A stretch of 45,310 bases of DNA, taken from Nitrospiria bacterium (GTDB lineage Bacteria; Nitrospirota; UBA9217). Below are positions 25,479 through 27,827 of this stretch, piece after piece; position 1 is the stretch's first letter, and each line of letters opens with the position of its first letter. The position numbers and the translations under genes are program-made. The notes beneath the pieces were generated by a model. It did not search any database, was not told the DNA's origin, and saw only the letters and a program-made list of their open reading frames with translations. The DNA lies in contig CAKKRC010000048.1 of NCBI GenBank assembly GCA_919902495.1, positions 1-45,310 on the forward strand. Reading direction: 5' to 3'.

Positions 25479-25501
25479 ATGTGTTGTACTCGGAGGTCGC
25501 A

Positions 25502-27289
25502 GTGACGATGAAGAAGCAGAACGTAAAGATCCCTTATGAGCTCAAGGACGTGAAGGAACCCGTCCTCTACCGGGACATTTTCCCGTACTCCAGCGTGCCG
25601 AAGATCGAATTCGAGGACCGGCTCATCCAGATCAATATGCCCAAGGATATCTGGCTCACCGACACGACCTTCCGCGACGGCCAGCAGTCCAGGCCGCCCT
25701 ACACGCCCAAGCAGATCGCCGACATCTTCGACTTCATGCACCGCATGAGCGGACCGAACGGCGTGATCCGCCAGACGGAGTTCTTCCTCTACTCGGAGAA
25801 GGACCGGGAGGCGGTGCGGCTCTGTCTGGAGCGGGGTTACCAATTCCCCGAGGTCACCGGCTGGATCCGGGCGAACAAGAACGACTTCAAGCTCGTGAAG
25901 GAGATGGGGCTCAAGGAAACAGGCATCCTCACCTCCTGCTCGGACTACCACATCTTCCTGAAGATGAACCTGTCCCGCAAGGACGCGCTCAAGGCGTACC
26001 TCGACATCGTGGCCACGGCCCTGGAGCAGGGGATCGTGCCCCGTTGCCATCTTGAGGACATTACGCGGGCGGACTTCTATGGGTTCGTCATCCCTTTCGT
26101 GCAGGACCTCATGAAGCTGTCCGAGGCCGCCAAGATGCCCGTGAAGGTCCGGGCCTGCGATACCATGGGCTACGGATTCCCCTTCCCGGGAACGTCGCTG
26201 CCGCGGGGTGTGCCCGAGATCTTCTACGCGCTGATCCACGAAGGAGGCGTCCCGTCGGAGCTCCTCGAATGGCACGGCCACAATGACTTCCACAAGGGCC
26301 TCGTGAACGGCACCGCGGCGTGGCTGTACGGCTGCTCGGCCGTGAACGGCGCGCTGCTCGGTTTCGGTGAACGCACGGGCAACACGCCGATCGAGGCCAT
26401 GCTCATCGACTACATCAGCCTCACCGGGAACGACGCGGGCATCGACACCGCGGCGATCACGGACATGGCGGAATACTTCCGGCGGGAGATGGGTTTTGAC
26501 ATCCCCTCCAACTACCCCTTCGTGGGCTCGGAGTTCAATTCCACGGCGGCAGGAATCCATGCGGACGGCATGATGAAGAACGAGGAGATCTACAACATCT
26601 TCGACACGACCAGGATCCTCAAGCGGCCCATGGGCGTGATCATCACGGACAAGTCCGGGATCGCCGGCATCGCCCATTGGGTGAACAGCCACCTCGGCCT
26701 CGATGCGGACAAGAAGATCGACAAACGCCATCCCGGCCTCACCAAGATGAACAAGTGGGTCCTTGAGCAGTACGAGCAGGGCAGGACCACGAGCATGTCT
26801 CATGATGAATTGCAGGAGAAGGCGAAGAAATACCTGCCCGAGTATTTCATCTCCGATCTCGACCGGCTCAAGAAAAAGGCCTCGGAGGTCGCGCGGCACA
26901 TCGTCGAGGAATTCGTGGAGCGGAAGGAGATCCGGACCATGGAACCGGCGAAGCAGGAGCCGGTGATGGAGAAGCTGCAGAAAGAGGACCCGTACATCCA
27001 GTTCGCGTACGTGGTGAACGCGAAAGGCAAAAAGATCACGCGCAACATCACGGACGTCGAGAACAAGGCAAAGTTCGAGATCGCCGGCCTCGGCGACGAC
27101 TTCTCGGACCGCTCCTGGTTCATCAACCCCATGAAGGACGGGAAGAGCTTCGTCTCGGACTTCTACACCTCGAAGATCACGGGCGCCCTTTGCATCACCG
27201 TATCGGCGCCCATTGCCGACGACGAGAGCAACATCATCGGCGTCTTCGGCGTGGACATCCGGTTCGAGGACCTTGTGCGGGCGGAATAG
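25502..27289 (+). CDS. HMGL-like carboxylic acid synthase fused to a Cache-like domain
   Basis: A 595-residue protein. Residues 30-330 form a DRE-TIM barrel of the isopropylmalate/homocitrate/Re-citrate synthase superfamily, with the DRE motif DIWLTDTTFRDGQQSR and the metal-binding EWHGHNDFHKG. These enzymes condense acetyl-CoA with a 2-oxo acid; its resemblance to proteins annotated as Re-citrate synthase is inference. The C-terminal 120 residues (SWFINPMKDGKSFVSD, ISKITGALCITVSAPI-like, IIGVFGVDIRFEDL) look like a Cache/PDC ligand-binding domain, which is unusual without a membrane helix. The C-terminal LeuA regulatory domain is replaced by it. GGAGGT lies 5 bases before GTG 25502 and 11 before ATG 25508; either may be used. 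A perfect hairpin terminator follows. Confidence 0.75.
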   Translation: MTMKKQNVKIPYELKDVKEPVLYRDIFPYSSVPKIEFEDRLIQINMPKDIWLTDTTFRDGQQSRPPYTPKQIADIFDFMHRMSGPNGVIRQTEFFLYSEKDREAVRLCLERGYQFPEVTGWIRANKNDFKLVKEMGLKETGILTSCSDYHIFLKMNLSRKDALKAYLDIVATALEQGIVPRCHLEDITRADFYGFVIPFVQDLMKLSEAAKMPVKVRACDTMGYGFPFPGTSLPRGVPEIFYALIHEGGVPSELLEWHGHNDFHKGLVNGTAAWLYGCSAVNGALLGFGERTGNTPIEAMLIDYISLTGNDAGIDTAAITDMAEYFRREMGFDIPSNYPFVGSEFNSTAAGIHADGMMKNEEIYNIFDTTRILKRPMGVIITDKSGIAGIAHWVNSHLGLDADKKIDKRHPGLTKMNKWVLEQYEQGRTTSMSHDELQEKAKKYLPEYFISDLDRLKKKASEVARHIVEEFVERKEIRTMEPAKQEPVMEKLQKEDPYIQFAYVVNAKGKKITRNITDVENKAKFEIAGLGDDFSDRSWFINPMKDGKSFVSDFYTSKITGALCITVSAPIADDESNIIGVFGVDIRFEDLVRAE

Positions 27290-27380: not shown

Positions 27381-27827
27381 TTAATCCTTGTCCCGGCCTT
27401 TTCCCTTCCCTTTCCCCTTGCCCTTTCCGTGGCCTTTTCCGCCGCCGCCATCAAGGTCATGGCCCCGCTTCAGAGCGTGGAACTCCGGCGATCCGGGCTT
27501 GATGCCCAGGCTCTTTGCCAGGTTGCCCCATCCCTGCCCCTTCCCGGTCCGGTACTTTTCGGCTACGCGGTCCGTAGGCTGCCCCGACATCTCCCCGAGA
27601 CGCAGCACCATGTAGGCGTCAGCGGGCTTCTCGACATTGCTCAACACCGTCGTTATCTGCGCGTCGCCGATCTTGAAGCGTGCGGCAAGGCGTGCCTTGA
27701 AGCCCGACGGATCGGCCTGGGCCTGAATGTTCAGGTCTTTGAGCCACTCGAAATCCTTCGCCGCTGCCGCCGACGCGATGGATAATACCATCAGCGATAC
27801 AACCAATACCGTGCGAAACGTTCTCAT
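27381..27827 (-). CDS. small exported protein with basic Gly-Lys tail
   Basis: A 148-residue protein with a signal peptide (MRTFRTVLVVSLMVLSIASAAAA). The mature part is helical (LAARFKIGDAQITTVLSNVEKPADAYMVLRLGEM, then VAEKYRTGKGQGWGNLAKSLGIKPG) and ends in a run of GK repeats (GGGGKGHGKGKGKGKG) with DKD at the end. Similar proteins of unknown function occur in Geobacter-like genomes. The Lys/Gly tail could bind nucleic acids or polyanions, which is inference. An AGGAGGAG ribosome binding site precedes the ATG. It is transcribed convergently with the upstream synthase gene. Confidence 0.7.
   Translation of the reverse strand: MRTFRTVLVVSLMVLSIASAAAAKDFEWLKDLNIQAQADPSGFKARLAARFKIGDAQITTVLSNVEKPADAYMVLRLGEMSGQPTDRVAEKYRTGKGQGWGNLAKSLGIKPGSPEFHALKRGHDLDGGGGKGHGKGKGKGKGKGRDKD

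Follow-up and report, generated by a model that had tools for sequence, protein, structure and literature searches.

The window studied here, a stretch of DNA of 45,310 nucleotides from a Nitrospiria bacterium, holds a gene for a protein made of two parts, an HMGL-like catalytic part (residues ~46-445) and a Cache domain (residues ~446-593). We computed the architecture, conservation, Cache fold and pocket motif of this protein, as well as the TCA context of its relatives. The open reading frame is the one that the sequence-only reading had placed at 25502-27289, with a different start: the ATG at 25508 was taken (Table 1), and 25502 is a GTG, an alternative start two codons upstream, the GGAGG found at 25492-25496 being compatible with either of them. 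The gene is preceded by rpe and followed by an ABC1 kinase gene and a nitrilase-family gene, a neighbourhood uninformative on function, and tblastn with TCA and aspS queries found none of these genes in the 45-kb window. At positions 27384-27827 the minus strand has an ORF of 148 aa with a signal-like N-terminus and a Gly/Lys-rich tail, without NCBIfam or Pfam match. The highest Kyte-Doolittle mean over 19 residues in the 593-aa protein is 1.12, so we place no membrane segment in it, in agreement with its earlier description as soluble. The AlphaFold2 model of the whole protein (593 aa) reached a mean pLDDT of 91.0 and a pTM of 0.76.

Table 1. Features of the HMGL-Cache gene, in positions of the window.
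Feature	Position	Strand	Basis
HMGL-Cache protein gene, 593 aa	25508..27289	+	ATG start; ORF listing; full-length orthologues
HMGL-like (DRE-TIM) catalytic barrel, residues 50-322	25655..26473	+	Pfam PF00682, E 4.6e-26
DTTFRDGQQ signature, residues 52-60	25661..25687	+	R56, D57, Q59, Q60 invariant
EWHGHND signature, residues 254-260	26267..26287	+	Invariant; two presumed metal-ligand histidines
Post-barrel helical subdomain, residues 323-445	26474..26842	+	Weak HCS_D2 match; helices in model
Cache (PDC) domain with long N-terminal helix, residues 446-593	26843..27286	+	Pfam, alignment, model, fold
DRSWF, residues 534-538, pocket motif R535/W537/F538	27107..27121	+	Conservation; PctA/KinD alignment
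YTS, residues 553-555, pocket Y553 and S555	27164..27172	+	Conservation; PctA alignment
D583, equivalent of PctA D173	27254..27256	+	D in 52/52; aligned to PctA

Relatives were collected by scanning public genome contigs with the patterns EWHGHND and DTTFRDGQ and keeping the best 80 of 590, in such a way that distant and Cache-less members (e.g., clostridial) are under-sampled. By length, these best 80 of 590 are 65 intact long forms, 11 short forms of 446-468 aa without Cache, and 4 truncated or frameshifted genes. The alignment of full-length members (A2) contains the window protein and 51 of the 80 loci, all 11 Cache-less forms, the truncated ones and many near-duplicates being omitted; the sets of neighbours contain 59 of 76 immediate upstream ORFs (A4), and 63 of 75 downstream ORFs, to which a second gene from locus L103 was added (A5).

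The modelled residues 45-447 superpose on the catalytic domain of the Sulfolobus homocitrate synthase (6ktq) with Z 34.4 and rmsd 3.0 over 370 aligned residues. The HCS_D2 match of residues 323-445 has an E value of 0.0027 (Pfam), and the alignment of the Cache-less relatives stops at residues 440-450 of the window protein. Among the 52 members of A2, drawn from the best 80 of 590, R56, D57, Q59 and Q60 do not vary and EWHGHND is identical in all. Both signatures are also found in the Cache-less relatives, with DTTFRDGQQ in 11 of 11 (best 80 of 590), a conservation that is partly selected because DTTFRDGQ, and likewise EWHGHND, was a scan pattern. The paralogues from the same genome differ at the first signature, with RDGEQ in LeuA and RDGAQ in CimA. 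The histidines of EWHGHND presumably bind the metal, a role that we carry over from structures of LeuA and homocitrate synthase.

Two Pfam Cache families match the C-terminal part above their cut-offs: dCache_1 at residues 463-589 (E 1.9e-14, 54.3 bits vs a cut-off of 45) and MCP-like_PDC_1 at residues 501-589 (E 1.1e-13, 52 bits vs 27). Both match the 52 members of A2 at E <= 0.01 (loci from the best 80 of 590). As the dCache_1 match spans only profile positions 30-155 of 240, the protein has one module, a single Cache resembling the membrane-distal half, and not the two modules of dCache_1. In the whole genome of the window (G000), MCP-like_PDC_1 (PF22673) occurs once, in this enzyme. A PDB profile search with the domain returned Tlp3 (4.4e-11), KinD (4.4e-10), PctA (4.7e-7) and YkuI (5.2e-4). 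The C-terminal 148 residues (446-593) were also modelled alone, with pLDDT 89.2 and pTM 0.85, giving helices at 5-24 and 35-48 and strands at 52-59, 116-125 and 131-140 in the numbering of the isolated model, that is, a long N-terminal helix followed by a PAS-like sheet, the arrangement of the Cache superfamily. The closest folds were those of WalK (4ywz, Z 15.9), KinD (4jgo, Z 15.7), CitA (1p0z, Z 14.7), KinD with pyruvate (4jgp, Z 14.6), DctB and Tlp3, and Foldseek also placed KinD on top (E 2.7e-9). The usual trait of Cache domains, extracytoplasmic and membrane tethered, is not a strict one, and it is absent here, where no hydrophobic segment was found. The sequence-only reading had proposed a Cache-like domain from two motifs, SWFINPMKDGK and GVFGVDIRFEDL, located at residues 536-546 and 578-589 of the 593-aa protein, and had asked for structure prediction of the C-terminus; Pfam, the PDB profile search and the fold all confirm a true Cache domain, and a fold unrelated to Cache did not occur.

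The only invariant columns of the Cache part in the 52-member alignment (best 80 of 590) are W537, F538, S555, L561 and D583. Position 535 is R in 47 of the 52 A2 members and position 553 is Y in 45; R535, W537, [FY]538, Y553 and D583 co-occur in 43 of the 52, and 9 of the 52 are without R535 or Y553 (all counts within the best 80 of 590). Aligned to PctA, R535/W537/F538/Y553/D583 fall on R126/W128/Y129/Y144/D173, with the same spacing of 16 residues between W and Y, and R535 aligns with KinD R131, the arginine replaced in the KinD R131A structures. The pocket set of PctA comprises Y121, R126, W128, Y129, Y144 and D173. Its Y121 position corresponds to residue 530 of the window protein and is not conserved across members, so the Cache pocket is not a full amino-acid motif. 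R126, W128, Y129, Y144 and D173 are residues of the amino-acid motif or motif-equivalent positions according to the available text of PMC10104139 and PMC11245519. As far as the alignment indicates, R535-x-W537-F538...Y553...D583 would represent most of the pocket motif of amino-acid-receptor Cache domains.

When the genome of the window and those of its relatives, 99 in all, were searched, 32 had orthologues with at least 57% identity, full-length or split (families f1, f3, f4, f7 and f8), one of these 32 Nitrospirota carriers having only a 60-residue fragment. The long forms of the contig scan come from records titled Nitrospirae, Deltaproteobacteria, Thermodesulfobacteriota, Spirochaetes, Omnitrophota, Elusimicrobia, Lentisphaerae, Fibrobacteres, Erginobacter (Auribacterota), Termititenax and UBP15, mostly MAGs, and the Cache fusion members of A2 represent about nine phyla (from the best 80 of 590). 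In the family of G116, the genome of a locus titled Syntrophaceae (L061), the gene was found in 27 of 51 genomes, all with the Cache part and one in two pieces, with open frames mostly of 630-650 aa. The HMGL-Cache fusion is old and conserved, being present in 52 of 52 aligned full-length members (best 80 of 590). A chance motif or a frameshift fusion was ruled out, since all 52 selected full-length members (best 80 of 590) carry the Cache domain and this is under purifying selection. At locus L075 (5941-7647) the frame of the homologue ends after 84 aa and the similarity runs on to residue 591, through either a frameshift or an assembly error.

A quick tree was built with 77 family members and two outgroups, omitting L067, L075, L082 and L095 (truncated or frameshifted) and labelling Cache forms by a length > 550 aa and not by Pfam. 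The short forms need two state changes on it and, rooted in this way, have Cache forms around them, a hint that the Cache domain was lost; the outgroup branches are very long and clostridial short forms are unsampled, so gain and loss of the domain cannot be ordered. Locus L106, titled Betaproteobacteria bacterium, nests among Desulfovibrionaceae in this tree and is probably a mislabelled bin.

The Cache part is constrained by purifying selection though it evolves faster than the catalytic part, with dN/dS of 0.083-0.252 vs 0.035-0.129 and Cache the faster in 5 of 6 close relatives. This difference bears on an alternative that we regard as unlikely, in which the same enzyme, a Re-type citrate synthase as argued below, carries its Cache as a module for assembly or stability, without a regulatory ligand. 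The faster evolution and the variation at R535 or Y553 in the nine members mentioned speak for it, as does the dimerisation role that Cache/PAS domains also play (PMC8694187, in its available part), whereas the best conserved residues (W537, F538, S555, L561 and D583) are of pocket type, which a structural role explains less well.

The reaction was approached through NCBIfam scores. The best was that of the NifV homocitrate synthase (TIGR02660), with 124.5 bits vs a cut-off of 462.9; LeuA (TIGR00973) gave 76.2 bits vs 598.7 and citramalate synthase (TIGR00977) 44.1 bits vs 450, none of these cut-offs being reached, and an identity as homocitrate synthase was rejected for lying far below the equivalog cut-off. 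Separate LeuA and CimA genes, above their cut-offs and both with a LeuA_dimer domain, are present in the same genome, so those two roles are already filled. No LeuA_dimer domain was found by Pfam in the HMGL-Cache protein, leading to rejection of a LeuA-type feedback domain, the second finding that could have spoken against the sequence-only reading.

Relatives without Cache are 61-67% identical over residues ~2-450, with Kuenenia/Brocadia-type genes at 61-62% (loci from the best 80 of 590), and their existence makes catalysis probably independent of the Cache domain. A succinyl-CoA ligase gene comes next in eight of the 11 loci with a short form (best 80 of 590; Pfam on representatives). The same context is reported for KSMBR1_RS10820, a candidate Re-citrate synthase of anammox bacteria with 55.1% identity to the C. 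kluyveri enzyme, whose host runs the oxidative branch according to 13C labelling without an annotated citrate synthase (PMC8027424, available part). Members of the Re-citrate synthase family are described as often misannotated as isopropylmalate or homocitrate synthase (PMC12016533, available part). By these likenesses to Kuenenia/Brocadia-type genes and their context, the close Cache-less relatives appear to be of the anammox Re-citrate synthase type. The Re-citrate synthase of S. aciditrophicus, from Kim and co-workers in 2013, is said to be a homotetramer of 73-kDa subunits. We take this size to fit the Cache-bearing form and not the 460-aa form.

The gene context of the Cache-bearing relatives was also studied. 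Leaving the short forms aside, 19 of 69 loci (best 80 of 590) have a TCA gene, of the type of aconitase, isocitrate dehydrogenase, malate dehydrogenase or succinyl-CoA ligase, in the flanking sequence retrieved, which extends to 6 kb at most: L032, L033, L034, L039, L042, L045, L049, L051, L060, L062, L063, L066, L074, L081, L083, L086, L088, L089 and L097, a count that includes weak matches (L089, aconitase-type, 28% identity; L074, IDH-type, 32-40%) and related, non-independent loci. As the Pfam families Aconitase and Iso_dh also hold LeuC and LeuB, ten neighbours were run on NCBIfam, after which a leucine operon context (LeuC, LeuD and LeuB neighbours) was rejected. The NADP-isocitrate dehydrogenases beside L042 and L097 are above the equivalog cut-off, and as LeuB they score 134 and 132 bits vs a cut-off of 353; equivalog cut-offs were also reached by the aconitases beside L062 and L066 and the malate dehydrogenase beside L033. 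None was reached by the 424-aa aconitase-family protein and the 164-aa small subunit of L042, nor by the IDH-like neighbours of L039 and L062, and the 785-aa neighbour in L097 is a hydratase of the aconitase superfamily. Among the Nitrospirota loci with intact genes (best 80 of 590), three of four (L032, L033 and L034) have a TCA gene immediately downstream, and in L034 an Sdh_cyt gene is directly downstream; no TCA gene adjoins the gene in L031, the nearest to the window, or in the window itself. Of the 80 loci (best 80 of 590), 31 have aspS, the gene for aspartyl-tRNA synthetase, upstream of the Cache-type gene and on the same strand; they lie between L035 (77-1864) and L087 and are mostly labelled Deltaproteobacteria, a 32nd match in L072 being weak (28%).

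Si-type citrate synthase was surveyed with Citrate_synt (PF00285) in 50 genomes, reached through 50 of the 80 loci (best 80 of 590), whose completeness is not given. A match was found in 14 of the 50; the partial one in G101 looks like ATP-citrate lyase and was not counted as Si-type, which leaves 13 genomes with a Si-type gene and 37 without. Within the same best 80 of 590, 32 of 42 Cache-bearing genomes are without it and 10 of 42 have it, and it is present in 3 of 8 short-form genomes. In a separate set of control genomes, 13 of 14 have it. In the Nitrospirota carriers, counting matches of E 1e-40 or better, a strong PF00285 gene is present in 17 of 32 and none in 15 of 32. The five genomes titled Desulfovibrio (L081, L086, L089, L096 and L097) are all without Si-citrate synthase, and in four of these loci (L081, L086, L089 and L097) an isocitrate dehydrogenase-type gene is immediately downstream; D. 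vulgaris is named as a user of Re-citrate synthase (PMC12016533, available part).

Two Si-type PF00285 genes are present in the window's own genome. The first, in a methylcitrate (prpB-prpC) cluster, has methylisocitrate lyase (prpB) as its neighbour and exceeds the cut-off of a bifunctional 2-methylcitrate/citrate synthase model; an aconitase-family gene is found near the second. A Re role is therefore not forced in this genome, to which a Re enzyme would add one more citrate synthase. At L114 (G000:C75:56000-59500) methylisocitrate lyase adjoins a gene of 2-methylcitrate synthase type, and an aconitase-family frame of 910 aa follows ~2 kb further on, a set that likely serves the methylcitrate cycle. 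The assignment as Re-citrate synthase, which the sequence-only reading had offered as a possibility, appears well supported by the family, the neighbourhood and the missing Si enzyme in many carriers, with the Si-type genes of the own genome speaking against it; Re stereochemistry is what we infer for the window enzyme.

These data were weighed against an acyltransferase of the same fold, also regulated by its Cache, which would make another product (homocitrate, 2-isopropylmalate, citramalate or 2-methylcitrate). We consider this improbable: it could draw on the NifV model being the best scoring one, on the aconitase-family neighbour in L042, of the two-subunit type and below every equivalog cut-off, and on the own Si-type genes, but no LeuA, CimA or NifV equivalog is reached, LeuA and CimA are encoded separately, the dehydrogenase neighbours in L042 and L097 are isocitrate dehydrogenases by score and far under the LeuB cut-off, and the anammox and TCA contexts point elsewhere. 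Very improbable indeed is a citrate cleavage enzyme working mainly in reverse in the reductive TCA cycle, with a Cache that senses citrate or acetate, for although Nitrospirota include users of that cycle, ~600-aa frames of family-f8 relatives with a weak Citrate_synt match look like ATP-citrate lyase, and CitA, a sensor of citrate, has one of the nearest folds, many carriers bear the labels of deltaproteobacterial sulfate reducers or syntrophs. In these groups the Re-citrate synthase is reported to start the oxidative branch (PMC12016533, available part).

We thus think it likely that the protein works in the cytosol as a Re-type citrate synthase and has its C-terminal Cache domain as ligand-binding regulatory module. 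Through its metal-dependent HMGL/DRE-TIM fold the enzyme would convert oxaloacetate and acetyl-CoA into citrate with Re specificity. Its Cache would sit where the LeuA allosteric domain sits in isopropylmalate and citramalate synthases, and a small carboxylate or an amino acid could bind there via R535, W537, Y553, S555 and D583, in such a way that the ligand state would reach the catalytic assembly by way of the long N-terminal helix (residues ~446-470), in the manner of the LeuA domain of the paralogues, and would set the flux into citrate, 2-oxoglutarate and glutamate. Judged from position and conserved pocket, a role as allosteric sensor is plausible; ligand binding and allosteric control of the window enzyme are what we infer, and we know of no effector or allosteric effect for an HMGL-Cache enzyme. 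If the domain works as a receptor, its ligand is probably a small carboxylate or an amino acid, for which the end product glutamate comes to mind; that the ligand stands at the end of the pathway or at its entry (glutamate or another amino acid, or else pyruvate) is offered as a tentative guess. In more general terms, we lean towards a Cache receptor in the cytosol through which many anaerobic phyla exert allosteric control on citrate synthase, and which has convergently replaced the LeuA feedback domain.

If true, central metabolism would have a Cache regulator fused to one of its enzymes, a sensor of extracellular type used in the cytosol. The soluble enzyme that carries it would stand where the TCA cycle begins, and its bearers include sulfate reducers, syntrophs and Nitrospirota besides other anaerobes. 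Should the Cache respond to a metabolite, the control of citrate synthesis could be tested directly, and the binding screens used with chemoreceptors could serve for the ligand search. The Cache also provides a domain-based label for the genes of an often misannotated family.

Cache domains are described as the main extracellular sensors of prokaryotes, with outputs in signal transduction (PMC4822843). In the available part of the same work (Upadhyay 2016), 78% of them are confidently predicted as extracellular, so cytosolic exceptions are possible in that set, and only Diacid_rec and YkuI_C are given as principally intracellular. No report of an HMGL-Cache fusion was recognised in the literature searched; primary papers on Re-citrate synthase, outside that search, may mention it, and the available text of PMC5861303 and PMC6469976 holds nothing on a Cache domain of this enzyme. 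The window protein shares the HMGL/DRE-TIM catalytic part with the Re-citrate synthases of Clostridium kluyveri and Syntrophus aciditrophicus and with KSMBR1_RS10820; those of anammox type end at ~457-468 aa without Cache, whereas the window protein has one. With LeuA and CimA it has in common the catalytic fold and the position of a C-terminal regulatory domain, which is LeuA_dimer in them and Cache in the window protein, far below the LeuA and CimA cut-offs. The Cache resembles those of KinD (pyruvate in 4jgp) and of PctA, Tlp3 and CtaA (amino acids) in fold and in the R-x-W-[FY]...Y...D pattern, but these are extracytoplasmic receptor domains and the window Cache is one soluble module on an enzyme; moreover, PctA Y121 is not kept in it and PctA D146 aligns with the invariant S555. 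A comparable arrangement is that of the Bacillus EAL protein YkuI, in which YkuI_C is likewise a cytosolic Cache behind a barrel domain (fold match 2w27, Z 12.7; profile match, E 5.2e-4), although it belongs to a different Pfam family and follows an EAL signalling domain, whereas in the window protein the Cache is attached to a metabolic synthase.
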